Origin: a virus
Virus record (IMG/VR): IMGVR_UViG_3300050821_001591
Span: 1 to 37,858 of that record
DNA length: 37,858 bases
Reading direction: 5' to 3' (one strand)
The translations under genes and the position numbers were made by a program. Under the pieces are notes generated by a model. The model was given only the letters and a program-made list of their open reading frames with translations. It was not told where the DNA came from and searched no databases. Below, in pieces: positions 1,519 to 22,954 of this stretch (position 1 is the stretch's first letter; each line of letters opens with the position of its first letter).

Positions 1519-3222
1519 ATGGCTTTCGCAAATAGCTCAATTTCGGATATCATCGCGACCAATATCCAGAGCAGAACTGGAGAGTTGGCCGACAACGTTT
1601 AATTGGACGTTGTAAAACTGGGTGAATTCGGTGAACGCTGAGATGCCAATACCGAGCCAAGCCAGAGACGGAGATAACATCAAGGGCTTTGGAAGGTGTA
1701 ACGACTAGATGGTGACGAAAGAATAACCCATCCACGAGCGCCCGGAGTTTGTTTCAACCAGCTAGAGAGGGGAATCCCGAATGGCAATTATCTACGCGAT
1801 AGAATGCATAAAGAACGGCAAAGCATATGTGGGATGTACGCAGAAGATAAAGAAGCGGATGCGCGAGCATTTGTGCCTTCTGCGAAACGGAAAGCATGCG
1901 GAACCGTCCTTTCAGGCGGACTTCAACCTTTATTCGGAATCGGACTTTCGCATTTTTGCGCTCCAGGAAGTGGAAAATACGCTGGAGCAAAAGAGAGGGC
2001 GGGAGCTGTATTGGATGGGGCGGTACGACTGCAAGGGTCTTTTGTACAACCGCAACAAGACATCGTTTCAACCGACCGAGAAAGCGTGGAAGAAGGGACA
2101 ACCCAGAGCCACAGCGGTCGAAGGAAAGAAGCGATCTCCAGAAGCGAATCTAAAGCGCAGATTGGCTCAACTTGGTATCCCAAAAGGGCACGGCGCGAAG
2201 ATCAGCGCAACCAAGCAGGCGAAACGGACTATGAGATAGTCTCCTCTGCATCGAATAAAAGATGTAGGCTGCGGATAAAGAGCTGCGGCACTAAGGCCAG
2301 GACTTACAACAACGCTCTTCTCACGCGTCTCAAAAAGCGCGGGAATCACAAGCCCTTTAGTGGGGGCAATGTGATCCTCGAAGAGATTATGTATAATGAT
2401 AGTACCACGAACAACACGAACTCCTATGCGGGTTACGAAGTGTTGAACGTGTCTCAGAATTCGCCCATCAGTGCTGCTCAGTTCAATATCAGCCAGTACG
2501 CTTCCGCTATCTCCATTTCCGGCCTGGAAATGATCCAGAATAGCGGCAAGGAGGCCATTATTGACCTTCTTGATGGGCGTATGAATGTTGCTGAGGCACA
2601 GTTGGCGAACCGTATCGCTGGCGATCTGTATCTCGACGGCACGGGCAACAGCGGTAAGAACCTCACAGGTCTTGCGGCTGCTGTTTCAACCACGCCGACT
2701 TCTGGAACCTATGGTGGCATCAATCGCGCCACATGGACCTTCTGGAATAACGTCGCATATTCTGGCGTGACGAATGGTAGTTCCACTGTTTCAGGGTCCA
2801 ATATCCAATCGTATATGGATTCTGTGGCTGTTCAGTTGATCCGTGGCACTGATAAGCCGGACTTAATTACGGCTGATAACAATTACTACCGCTTTTATCT
2901 ACAATCACTCCAAGCTATCCAACGTGTTCAAAGCGAAGGCGATGAAATGGCCGGCATTGGCTTTTCCTCGCTCAAGTATTTCGGCGCTGGTATGGCTTCG
3001 GATGTGATCTTGGATGGCGGTATCGGTTCGGATCAGACCGCGAATACGATGTTCTTCCTGAATACGAAGTACATCTTTTTCCGGCCTCATGCGGATCGTA
3101 ACTTTGTGCCGATTGGCGGCGAGCGCCAGGCCATCAACCAAGATGCCATCGTGAAATTGATCGGCTGGGCGGGGAATCTGACCTCCTCTGGCGTTCAATT
3201 TCAAGGCGTCCTTTCGGCCTGA
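1519..3222 (+). CDS. Major capsid protein, interrupted by a group I intron (exons 1519-1599 and 2302-3222)
   Basis: Exon 1 has a good ribosome site (GGAGAA) and encodes 27 residues ending LADNV, then runs into a TAA stop. After 702 bases the same frame resumes with TYNNALLTRLKKRGN and continues through GGNVILEEIMYNDST to the stop at 3220-3222. Joining GTT (1597-1599) to ACT (2302-2304) restores a 333-aa coat protein of a family common in short-tailed phages, whose members read continuously across this junction (DNV-x-x-NNALL). The second exon holds the HK97-like core segments, including GLEMIQNSGKEAIIDLLDGR. The exact splice bases are inferred from the P1 pairing and from frame. The 166 residues preceding exon 2 in the same open frame are intron sequence, not protein. 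Confidence 0.9.
1600..2301 (+). ncRNA. Group I self-splicing intron in the coat gene
   Basis: The 702-base insertion splits the coat gene in frame. Its 5' end can form P1: exon bases 1592-1599 (ACAACGTT) pair with 1606-1613 (GACGTTGT), giving seven Watson-Crick pairs and a U-G pair at the splice site, as group I introns require. A P7-like pairing joins GACTA (1703-1707) with TAGTC (2237-2241), embedded in the usual conserved contexts (AAGGTGTAACGACTAGA and GAGATAGTC). The intron would end at G2301. An endonuclease ORF sits between the two P7 strands, and its stop codon lies within the 3' strand. Intron class and folding were judged by eye. Confidence 0.85.
1781..2239 (+). CDS. GIY-YIG homing endonuclease (intron-encoded)
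   Basis: 152 aa with the GIY-YIG fold at the N-terminus: IIYAIECIKNGKAYVG (residues 3-18) carries the two signature strands, KKRMREH supplies the conserved Arg and His, and GRELYWMG then LLYNRN supply the catalytic Glu and the late Asn. The C-terminal 60 residues are Lys/Arg-rich and likely bind DNA (NUMOD-like or unstructured). Known role: it cleaves intron-less copies of the coat gene so that repair copies the intron in. It has its own ribosome site (GAGAGGGG, 1764-1772). Its last codons overlap the 3' P7 strand of the intron core, a constraint seen in other intron-encoded nucleases. Confidence 0.92.
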   Translation: MAIIYAIECIKNGKAYVGCTQKIKKRMREHLCLLRNGKHAEPSFQADFNLYSESDFRIFALQEVENTLEQKRGRELYWMGRYDCKGLLYNRNKTSFQPTEKAWKKGQPRATAVEGKKRSPEANLKRRLAQLGIPKGHGAKISATKQAKRTMR

Positions 3223-3804: not shown

Positions 3805-4617
3805 ATGAATATCGAGGTCACTTGTGCCTATCCCGATTCGCTCATCTGGGCGAATGTGGAGAAAAATTCGCGCTCTTGCTCGAATTGGCTCAAGACAGTT
3901 CCGGCTCACGATGGGCATGCCGTCATAGTAGGCGGCGGTCCATCATTGACGGACAAGATGCAGCTTATCAAGAACAGGGTCAGCCTCGGTCAGACAGTTT
4001 TTGCCTTGAACGGTGCTGGCCCTTTCTTGAACAAGCATGACATAATCCCGGATTATCAAGTGTTCCTGGATTGCTTGCCGACTATGACGGAACGCATTGG
4101 CGAAGCGAAAAATTATCTTATCGGGTCGCAATGCGATCCCGTGATGCTGACAGCGGTACCTAATCCAATTCTATGGCATACCGCTATTGAGCATATGGAA
4201 GATCATCTCCCGGAAGATCGGAAATCGAGCGACAGTTATTGCTTGGTAGGTGGGGGTGGGGCCACCGTAGGTTTATCTACTTTGGCGCTTGTCTATGCCC
4301 TCGGCTATCGCAAGATTCACCTATTTGGGTATGACTCTTCCGCAAAAAATGGCAATGGTCATGCCTATGAAGTCCCTAGCGAAATCCCTGGTGTCCAGGA
4401 ATATATCGGGGGCGTCCCGATTGGATATGTGGATGTTGAGCTGAATGGAAAACATTTCCAATCCACGCTATCCATGACCCGACAAGCTGAATTGTTCCCG
4501 GAAGTGTGTCAGGCCCTCCATTTGCGTGGCTGTGCCGTGACCGTGGATGTTCACGAAGATTCAATGATGGCGGAAGTGCTGCACATGATGAACGCAACGC
4601 AGCCCATGGCTGCCTAG
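3805..4617 (+). CDS. DUF115 / Maf-like glycosyltransferase-fold protein
   Basis: 270 aa. A nucleotide-binding style strand-loop, AVIVGGGPSLTDK (about 39-51), is followed by VFALNGAGPFL, a G-rich turn VGGGGATVGLSTLALVYALG (about 148-167) and IHLFGYDSS. This order resembles the DUF115 family (archaeal MptE-like pyrophosphokinases and the bacterial motility accessory factors Maf that glycosylate flagellin). Such genes occur between virion genes in several short-tailed phages. The substrate is unknown; modification of a virion or host surface component is a guess. The start lacks a strong ribosome site (weak TGGGAAAC). Confidence 0.65.
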   Translation: MNIEVTCAYPDSLIWANVEKNSRSCSNWLKTVPAHDGHAVIVGGGPSLTDKMQLIKNRVSLGQTVFALNGAGPFLNKHDIIPDYQVFLDCLPTMTERIGEAKNYLIGSQCDPVMLTAVPNPILWHTAIEHMEDHLPEDRKSSDSYCLVGGGGATVGLSTLALVYALGYRKIHLFGYDSSAKNGNGHAYEVPSEIPGVQEYIGGVPIGYVDVELNGKHFQSTLSMTRQAELFPEVCQALHLRGCAVTVDVHEDSMMAEVLHMMNATQPMAA

Positions 4618-8112: not shown

Positions 8113-8573
8113 GCTACACGATTGCCCAAGAAAGATTGCCTGATGTTTACCCAGAACTGGAGCATCTTTTCCGCGCCCATTACGCAGAAATGTGTGCTCG
8201 TTTAGAGAAATTATTCGGGACGAAATGCTCTCAATATAACCCGAATTTGGATGGCTATTTTCGTGCTGATCGAGATGGAAAGCTACTCACATTTGTAGCC
8301 CGCTGTGATGGCATTCCAGTTGGGTACGCAACCGTCTATGTCGTCCGTGACATGCACAACGGAGATATCATTGCCCAAGAAGATGTTTTGTATGTAACGC
8401 CAAACCACAGGAATGGTCTAGGCCGCAAGTTGGTCAAGTTTGGCTTGGAGGAATTGAGAAAACGGAACGTGAAGAAATTGAATGTGGTGGCTATGACTGA
8501 TTTGCGTGTTGTGCCTTTGTGGAAGCGCATGGGCTTCACGGAAATGGCTACCCAGATGACTTACTCGTTCTAA
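8109..8573 (+). CDS. GNAT-family N-acetyltransferase
   Basis: 154 aa (an upstream ATG at 8097 would add four residues; 8109 is preferred because it overlaps the previous stop as ATGA). The acetyl-CoA pyrophosphate-binding motif is visible as VTPNHRNGLGRKLVKFG (V-x-P-x-x-R-x-x-G-x-G-x-x-L), followed by KLNVVAMTDLRVVPLWKRMGF, the usual last GNAT helix and strand. Such single GNAT genes recur between tail genes of related short-tailed phages. The substrate is unknown; a virion or host target is possible. Confidence 0.85.
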   Translation: MSYTIAQERLPDVYPELEHLFRAHYAEMCARLEKLFGTKCSQYNPNLDGYFRADRDGKLLTFVARCDGIPVGYATVYVVRDMHNGDIIAQEDVLYVTPNHRNGLGRKLVKFGLEELRKRNVKKLNVVAMTDLRVVPLWKRMGFTEMATQMTYSF

Positions 8574-8583
8574 GGATAGGATC

Positions 8584-9573
8584 ATGTGCCAACCCGCTGC
8601 CCCTGATTATGCTGCCGCCGCAACTGCGCAAGGCGCTGCCAATGTCACGGCTGCTCAGAATCAAGCCACGCTCAATAACCCGAATATCACAAGCCCCTAT
8701 GGGACGCAGACGGTCAATTATACGACCGGCCCAAATGGGATGATGCAACCCGACATTACCCAGCAACTTACGCCAGCGGGCCAACAGGATGTAACGGCTC
8801 AACAGCAGGTTCAGCTAGGCGAGGCCAATCTCGCCAACCAGGGCTTGGGTACCGCCCAAAGCATCATGGGTTCGCCGTTCCAATATAATGGGCCTGGAAT
8901 TCAGACAGGACTGCCGAGCGTAGGCCAAGCGCAAACGAGTGCGGATATGTCTGGAGTTGCACCCGCTGCGATCAATCCGGGTACGACTGCGTATCAGGCT
9001 CAGATGAATTTGTTGCAGCCTCAGATTACACAGCAGCAAAATGCGCTGACGCAACAGTTACAGAACCAGGGCATTCCCATCGGTTCGGATGCTTATAACA
9101 ATGCCATGCGCGCCGAAGGAAATCAGATTGGCTCGCTCGAAGATCAAGCTGCGGTTCAGGGTGTTGGCCTCCAGCAATCGGCCAATCAACAAGGCTATCA
9201 GCAAGCCTTGGGCAATGCCGGACTTTACAACAGCGGTGTAGCACAAAACTACCAGCAGGCACTTGGTAGTGGTCAATTCGGCAATACCGCTGCACAACAG
9301 GCCCTATCTCAGCAACTTGGCCTCTATAATCAGCCGCTGAACGAGATTACAGCTTTGATGAGCGGGTCGCAGATTCAAAGCCCACAATTCCAGCAATATA
9401 CAGGTGGGGGCACGATTGGAGCCGCTCCCGTCATGCAAGCGGCGGTCAATCAAGGTAACTATAACACGGCAGCTTACAATTCTCAGATGTCTGGGCTAGG
9501 CGGTCTGTTTGGTGGCGCGGGCGATATTTTGGGCGGGACGAATCCTCTAACAACTGCTCTATTCGGAGCGTAA
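8584..9573 (+). CDS. Gln/Ala-rich internal virion (ejection) protein 1
   Basis: 329 aa opening MCQPAAPDYAAAATAQG, then TLNNPNITSPYGTQTV, an N-terminal pattern shared by a family encoded downstream of the tail hub in many short-tailed phages. Composition is dominated by Gln, Ala, Asn and Gly, with a Gly-rich C-terminus. Gene order (hub, then three long low-complexity proteins, then fibre) matches the position of P22 gp7/gp20/gp16, which are ejected with DNA and form a channel across the cell envelope. Sequence alone does not prove that role. Ribosome site AGGATAGGA. Confidence 0.65.
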   Translation: MCQPAAPDYAAAATAQGAANVTAAQNQATLNNPNITSPYGTQTVNYTTGPNGMMQPDITQQLTPAGQQDVTAQQQVQLGEANLANQGLGTAQSIMGSPFQYNGPGIQTGLPSVGQAQTSADMSGVAPAAINPGTTAYQAQMNLLQPQITQQQNALTQQLQNQGIPIGSDAYNNAMRAEGNQIGSLEDQAAVQGVGLQQSANQQGYQQALGNAGLYNSGVAQNYQQALGSGQFGNTAAQQALSQQLGLYNQPLNEITALMSGSQIQSPQFQQYTGGGTIGAAPVMQAAVNQGNYNTAAYNSQMSGLGGLFGGAGDILGGTNPLTTALFGA

Positions 9574-21648: not shown

Positions 21649-22872
21649 ATGTCAGACTTTGAGTTTCACCAGGCCGAAGGCGAGGCACCAATCAAGACCT
21701 GGACAAAGGGCGTCCAGATCGAGCCCCAGGCCATGGCGCAACTCCACAACGTCGCCAAGCTACCATTCATCCACAAGCACATTGCGGCGATGCCGGATGT
21801 GCATTGGGGCATGGGTGCCACCATCGGCAGCGTGATTGCCAGCAAGGGTGCCATCGTGCCAGCGGCGGTCGGCGTGGACATCGGCTGCGGGATGATGGCG
21901 GTGAAGACCACCCTGCGGGCTGAACAGCTTCCCGACAATCTTCACCAGACCAGGCTGGATATCGAGGCGGCAGTCCCGCATGGCCGCACGGACAACGGCG
22001 GGGCCAATGACCGGGGCGCATGGCATGACCTACCGGCTGAGAGCGTCGAGCGGTATGCCCCTCTGTCGGCCCGCTATGACGCCATAATCGGCAAACATCC
22101 CAAGGCCAAAGCCTACAATTCCGCACGCCACCTTGGCACGCTGGGAACCGGGAACCACTTCATAGAGCTTTGCCTTGATGAAATCGGCGCGGTTTGGGTG
22201 ATGCTGCACAGCGGTTCGCGCGGTGCAGGCAACAAAATCGGCATGTATTTTATCGAGAAAGCCAAGGAGGAAATGCGCCGGTATTACATCGACAAATTCC
22301 TACCCGATCAAGACTTGGCCTATCTGGTGGATCATACCGAAATCTTTGATGACTATGTGGAGGCGGTCCATTGGGCGCAAGACTTCGCCTGGGAGAACCG
22401 TCACGCCATGATGGACGCGGTGCTGCGCGCTATGCGCCTAACGCTTCCACCTTTCGAGGCAACTGACATGGCCGTGAACTGCCATCACAATTATGTGGCG
22501 CGCGAAAACCACTTCGGCGCCAACGTGCTAGTGACCCGCAAGGGGGCCGTCCGGGCGCGCGAGGGTGATCTCGGTATCATCCCTGGCAGCATGGGGACGG
22601 GCAGCTTCATCGTGCGCGGCAAGGGCAACGCCGAGTCGTTTCATTCCTGCTCGCACGGTGCTGGACGGGCCATGTCGCGTGGCGCGGCCAAGAAGATGAT
22701 TACGCTGGAACAGCACGCCGAGGCCATGAAGGGTATTGAGGCGCGGCTTGACGCCGATGTGATCGACGAGAGCCCTGCGGCCTACAAGAACATTAACGCC
22801 GTCATGGCGGCTCAGACGAGCCTTGTGGACATCGTGCATCGTCTGCACCAAGTCCTAAACGTGAAGGGCTGA
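21649..22872 (+). CDS. rtcB: RtcB RNA-splicing ligase
   Basis: 407 aa, the same length as E. coli RtcB (408). Key motifs are intact: AAVGVDIGCGMMAV (metal-binding Asp and Cys), LGTLGTGNHFIEL, MLHSGSRGAG, AVNCHHNYV, IIPGSMGTGS and SFHSCSHGAGRAMSR with the His that takes GMP. RtcB joins RNA 2',3'-cyclic phosphate or 3'-phosphate ends to 5'-OH ends using GTP and Mn. In phages it is thought to repair tRNAs cut by host anticodon nucleases. It starts eight bases after the DUF5131 remnant and is followed by a phage tRNA-Pro on the other strand. Base composition looks richer in G+C than the virion genes, suggesting recent acquisition. Confidence 0.95.
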   Translation: MSDFEFHQAEGEAPIKTWTKGVQIEPQAMAQLHNVAKLPFIHKHIAAMPDVHWGMGATIGSVIASKGAIVPAAVGVDIGCGMMAVKTTLRAEQLPDNLHQTRLDIEAAVPHGRTDNGGANDRGAWHDLPAESVERYAPLSARYDAIIGKHPKAKAYNSARHLGTLGTGNHFIELCLDEIGAVWVMLHSGSRGAGNKIGMYFIEKAKEEMRRYYIDKFLPDQDLAYLVDHTEIFDDYVEAVHWAQDFAWENRHAMMDAVLRAMRLTLPPFEATDMAVNCHHNYVARENHFGANVLVTRKGAVRAREGDLGIIPGSMGTGSFIVRGKGNAESFHSCSHGAGRAMSRGAAKKMITLEQHAEAMKGIEARLDADVIDESPAAYKNINAVMAAQTSLVDIVHRLHQVLNVKG

Positions 22873-22877
22873 GAAAA

Positions 22878-22954
22878 TGGTCGGGAGAGCAGGATTTGAA
22901 CCTACGGCCTTCCGGTTCCGGGCCGGAAGCTCTACCAGGCTGAGCTATCTCCCG
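22878..22954 (-). tRNA. tRNA-Pro (anticodon CGG), C at position 33
   Basis: 77 bases with CCA encoded. Acceptor CGGGAGA/TCTCCCG (C1-G72 as in bacterial tRNA-Pro), D stem GCTC/GAGC with AGCCTGGTA loop, anticodon stem TCCGG/CCGGA with loop CCCGGAA, T arm GTAGG-TTCAAAT-CCTGC. All stems pair. The base before the anticodon is C instead of the almost universal U33. It lies eight bases beyond the RtcB stop codon, on the opposite strand. Confidence 0.92.

Follow-up and report, generated by a model that had tools for sequence, protein, structure and literature searches.

The major coat gene of an environmental virus record of 37,858 bases, analyzed here in full as the window, almost certainly carries a mobile group I intron that would splice itself from the transcript and that encodes an I-TevI-type endonuclease predicted to cut DNA. 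The coat frame opens at 1519 and runs for 27 codons to ...GELADNV before a TAA stop. From 2302 (TYNNALL...), the coat protein continues as TYNNALLTRLKKRG... to a stop at 3222, and joining 1599 to 2302 yields an open 333-aa coat frame with no break. The early stop and the resumption 702 bases on, both anticipated in the original prediction, are correct to the base, and its proposal of a group I intron carrying a GIY-YIG homing endonuclease holds with coordinates unchanged. The coding parts of the locus, together with a small hairpin inside the intron, are as follows.

1519-1599, + strand: coat gene exon 1, 27 codons, MAFANSSISDIIATNIQSRTGELADNV; most relatives have the same N-terminus without interruption
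1600-2301, + strand: group I intron, 702 nt, final base G
1769-1778, + strand: small hairpin GGG-GAAU-CCC over the endonuclease Shine-Dalgarno; third pair never mismatched, being G-C in 15 introns and A-U in 16
1781-2239, + strand: GIY-YIG homing endonuclease ORF, 152 aa, in the P8 loop; PF01541, 1.1e-9
2302-3222, + strand: coat gene exon 2, 306 codons plus stop

Exon 2 alone matches PHROG 9953 "major head protein" (4.7e-94), and once the exons are joined the homology to this phage major capsid protein family is full length. The joined 333-aa protein aligns in one piece, over 99-100% of its length, with the intact coats of Bradyrhizobium phage ppBjS10J-1 (52% identity), Myxococcus phage Mx8 (51%), and Stenotrophomonas phage BUCT555 (51%), within an overall range of 48-52% for cultured phages. 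Across 74 intronless relatives, phage records included, the coat frame runs uninterrupted through the intron site. The coat gene is split, and its exact empty site exists in these relatives. A neighboring virion structural gene, together with genes for tail proteins, an amidase, and a terminase, supports a tailed-phage genome.

Judged by covariation, the insertion folds as a group I core. Pairing was scored with strands at fixed registers in 17 introns, against 1000 strand shuffles per helix; the shuffles ignore relatedness, and the sequences span several distant lineages. The predicted helices, all on the + strand, are listed below.

P1: 1592-1599 (5' exon) with 1606-1613, ACAACGUU/GACGUUGU; U1599-G1606 at the splice site, identified by sequence
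P3: 1618-1623 (CUGGGU) with 1740-1745 (GCCCGG); 101/102 pairs in 17 introns, shuffle mean 76%, 0/1000 as high
P4: 1628-1632 with 1651-1655; 93% paired, 0/1000 shuffles as high
P6a: 1662-1667 with 1687-1692; 102/102 pairs, double changes at 6/6 positions, 0/1000 shuffles as high
P7: 1703-1707 (GACUA) with 2237-2241 (UAGUC); invariant
P7.1: 1708-1712 with 1728-1732; 74/85 pairs (87%), 0/1000 shuffles as high
P8: 1746-1755 with 2221-2230; 110/119 pairs, double changes at 7/7 positions, 0/1000 shuffles as high
P9: 2246-2252 with 2261-2267; 119/119 pairs, 0/1000 shuffles as high, 3' strand taken at whichever of up to eight offsets paired best
P9.1: 2269-2274 with 2283-2288, loop AUAAAGAG; 102/102 pairs, 0/1000 shuffles as high

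Compensatory changes occur in P3, P4, P6a, P7.1, P8, P9, and P9.1, and the conserved P3-P4-P6-P7-P8 core is present with covarying helices. The perfect P9 count leans upward because of the choice among offsets, and P7, being invariant, is uninformative by itself on pairing; its strands are the GACTA/TAGTC pair that had been proposed as P7-like. At the 5' splice site, the predicted U-G pair of P1 was found as U1599-G1606, and the last intron base is G, both features of group I introns. The U-G pair occurs in 17/17 introns, a conservation that is partly by construction since most of them were gathered with a pattern that contains P1. An outer P1 pair, intact in the window, is lost in several relatives (L012, L087, and L093), and inspection by eye revealed no evident P10 pairing. 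The extra P7.1 helix, the one subgroup feature considered, might point to subgroup IA.

Covariance models locate the same core. The Rfam Intron_gpI model (RF00028) aligns to 1590-2267 of the window with 22.5 bits (E 0.003), the right place, although below the gathering score of 50, which is a library cut-off and no biological feature. This low score is most likely due to the long (~460-nt) ORF insert. Introns at the same site without such an endonuclease ORF pass the cut-off (L113, 72 bits; L121 and L137, 61 bits each), whereas none of the ten ORF-bearing introns scanned at the DNV site (window, L009, L012, L087-L090, L101, L119, and L150) scores above it. A custom model spanning P3 to P3', built from 13 relatives with the window left out, gives a single match in the window (1613-1747, 139.4 bits, E 1.8e-36) and none in nine intronless loci of the same search. 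The covariance-model check suggested with the original prediction thus supports a group I intron. The Rfam cut-off can miss introns with long ORFs, and automated annotation may label such intron-split coat genes as truncated.

The endonuclease ORF is intact, as had been predicted; its position, given earlier as between the P7 strands, is more exactly the P8 loop, with the 3' end encoding P8' and P7'. Pfam detects GIY-YIG and no other domain in this ORF, and among solved structures only the I-TevI catalytic domain (1MK0, 2e-4) is matched significantly. The motif residues of an I-TevI-like catalytic domain (Y, Y-V/I-G, R, H, E, and N) are present: Y5, Y16, R26, H30, E75, and N90 correspond to Y6, Y17, R27, H31, E75, and N90 of I-TevI and are kept in the aligned endonuclease relatives. 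A dN/dS of ~0.1-0.16 in the computable pairs (~0.16 versus L086), with dS near saturation, indicates constraint. The last ORF codons double as the 3' strand of P8 and that of P7, and the UAG stop, correctly placed in a P7 strand beforehand, is the first three bases of UAGUC. A different arrangement is seen in the L150 intron at the same coat site (reverse-complement 8187-9052), in which a diverged 227-aa GIY-YIG protein is present and the usual 152-aa type and its hairpin are absent, suggesting endonuclease exchange within the intron.

An intron that no longer splices, or a dead endonuclease, would point to a defective phage genome in which the insertion is decaying. Derivation from an environmental virus record is in keeping with that reading, but the core helices of the window are all intact, as are the catalytic residues of an endonuclease under the constraint noted above, and the coat exons are open and conserved. 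A coat gene left unspliced would moreover be lethal, and we consider decay very unlikely. The earlier argument that, in an essential coat gene, splicing would have to be efficient is a sound one.

The coat protein might instead be produced with no splicing at all, by internal initiation in a 472-aa open frame (1804-3222), which begins within the intron and continues through exon 2; in the window, the exon 2 frame is indeed open for 200 codons into the intron. This openness is not conserved, however, ranging from 3 to 237 codons in the relatives checked (several only 3-14), so the overlapping ORF is probably due to chance. The frame also overlaps the endonuclease ORF, and its product would be without the conserved coat N-terminus, which leaves internal initiation extremely improbable. 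Inteins, group II introns, ribosome-bypass elements, and free-standing endonuclease insertions interrupt phage genes too, but the probability that the insertion is one of these is equally minute: they are refuted by the group I core, recognized by both the Rfam and the custom model, and by its covariation, and the only Pfam match in the ORF is GIY-YIG. An intein is further contradicted by the immediate stop after exon 1 and by the lack of any frame in phase with both exons.

For the self-splicing, mobile group I intron favored here, we propose that the ribozyme folds in the transcript, where P1 would bring the last base of exon 1, the U of GUU, opposite a G. Two transesterifications would then join GUU to ACU, release the 702 nt, and restore the 333-aa coat frame. 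Unspliced RNA would yield the I-TevI-type GIY-YIG endonuclease from the P8 loop. In co-infecting phages whose coat allele lacks the intron, this enzyme would cleave the conserved ADNV/TNNNALL sequence. Repair templated by the occupied allele would then place the intron there by homing, the spread itself being visible by comparison. The small covarying hairpin and the ORF end in P8/P7 may together hold endonuclease translation down. Control by the hairpin over the ribosome-binding site is suggestive only, since T4 intron endonucleases are held back by much stabler structures of this kind (PMC2988022). The ORF end that builds P8 and P7 would fit a restrained endonuclease, as a ribosome there would, by analogy to T4 td, disturb folding. 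Any advantage in competition is likewise only proposed.

Comparison of empty and occupied alleles places the intron boundaries. An intron-bearing allele (L010) and an intronless one (L016) are identical over the first 100 nt downstream, and the 305 nt upstream contain a single difference, at the -1 base, which is T with the intron and A without. The other three allele pairs compared repeat this contrast. Among alleles not picked by sequence pattern, T occupies -1 in 11/11 intron-bearing genes (window included) versus 7/74 empty alleles, a comparison whose p-value is inflated by near-copies. GTA and GTT both encode valine, which makes the change synonymous, and the U is the base of the splice-site U-G pair, required by the splice site. 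The -1 contrast fixes the intron boundaries, and it fits homing that brings the exon end along. A co-conversion tract was sought by comparing the window with L006, the closest relative lacking the intron, and was rejected, as flank identity is a mosaic with no clean signal.

The introns so compared make up a one-site family with a patchy, non-vertical distribution. The insertion is present in 5/80 coat relatives from viral contigs; an endonuclease-based scan added five more loci, all coat genes interrupted at the same codon boundary, with coats 34-50% identical to that of the window. Once a search with the P1 DNA pattern was included, 34 distinct introns of 233 to 865 nt could be delimited at both ends, all at one codon boundary and with the same core, in coats reaching down to ~35% identity. 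Shared boundary and core in 34 distinct insertions lie far beyond chance. The P1 pattern also located the intron in four MAG contigs (L153, L161, L163, and L164), one of them Caulobacterales, and a protein search of genome contigs with the endonuclease returned no relative. On the coat tree, intron presence changes 13 times, at least seven of them forced by starred branches, counts to be taken as "several" given a quick tree, a simple model, and long branches. Such patchiness at a single site is an indirect pointer, and no more, to the predicted cutting of the intronless allele. The coat of the window is nearest to that of intronless L006 (93%), whereas its endonuclease most resembles the L086 protein (61%), even though the L086 coat shares only 35% identity; with L009, whose coat is 84% identical, the endonuclease shares 49%. 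Intron and coat histories therefore differ, a mismatch that would be expected of lateral spread. Two coat genes, L119 (minus strand; reverse-complement ~2155-3165) and L163 (~940-1800), contain two group I introns each, the DNV-site GIY-YIG intron and a second ~40 codons on, whose HNH-like endonuclease ORF is encoded antisense and measures 268 and 200 aa, respectively.

A bolder reading, advanced tentatively and which we regard as rather doubtful, is that this codon boundary, in the N-terminal part of the coat family, has long been a hot spot that related group I introns entered again and again in very divergent phages. On that view, the endonuclease may serve as a weapon against co-infecting rivals by cutting their coat gene, and the intron keeps its own nuclease in check through the covarying hairpin over the ribosome-binding site. 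In PhiPA3, an intron endonuclease acts in competition between co-infecting phages (PMC11620839). The one-site family provides a large natural set of empty and occupied alleles in an essential, highly expressed gene, which opens a direct way to test homing, lateral transfer among distantly related phages, and the need for a particular -1 base.

Several known introns resemble that of the window. In T4 td, the I-TevI ORF is located in P6a. The window intron shares with T4 td/I-TevI the GIY-YIG class, the catalytic residues, an ORF end in the ribozyme core, and a ribosome-binding site in RNA structure, and in td translation into the core harms splicing (PMC2988022). It differs in having its ORF in P8, a hairpin of only ~3 bp, and a coat gene as host instead of thymidylate synthase. 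Splicing of the capsid intron of LittleE, a Cluster J mycobacteriophage, was shown by RT-PCR and N-terminal sequencing, and a capsid intron in lactococcal phage Tuc2009 is cited in the same report (PMC3706429). The LittleE intron likewise interrupts a major capsid gene, with U ending exon 1, G ending the intron, and a homing endonuclease carried; its type is given no more firmly than "most likely group I," and its endonuclease is LAGLIDADG-like on the opposite strand (PMC3706429). The window intron, in contrast, has a sense-strand GIY-YIG endonuclease in P8 and belongs to the coat gene of what is probably a different phage group. Capsid group I introns are already known from LittleE and Tuc2009, and it is the breadth of the one-site family that is notable; the open-access literature searched yielded no report of introns in the coat family of the window.

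At the DNA level, the DNA polymerase intron of K1F (DQ111067, annotated with an endonuclease) is 80% identical over 55 nt in the 5' core of the window intron. T7-like DNA polymerase introns, however, occupy another host gene and carry HNH-type endonucleases in P6a (PMC3428280), where self-splicing of K1F/T7-like relatives is cited from Bonocora and Shub 2004. The best DNA match of the core is in Bacillus phage SP-15 (KT624200, ~93078-93208; 77% over 114 nt), in another gene and host, an endonuclease ORF being absent from that core. This SP-15 segment (L001, 2488-2618) is an unannotated group I core, scoring 69.5 bits with the custom model, just after an annotated recA ORF; SP15_094 and SP15_095 may be two recA exons.

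Two other genes of the window were recorded. An MptE-like domain protein (3805-4617; PF01973, 2.7e-17) lies within the virion structural gene cluster, and an RtcB-type RNA ligase gene (21649-22954; phrog_1075, 1.2e-143) adjoins a tRNA-Pro gene on the other strand, a neighborhood possibly involved in tRNA repair.
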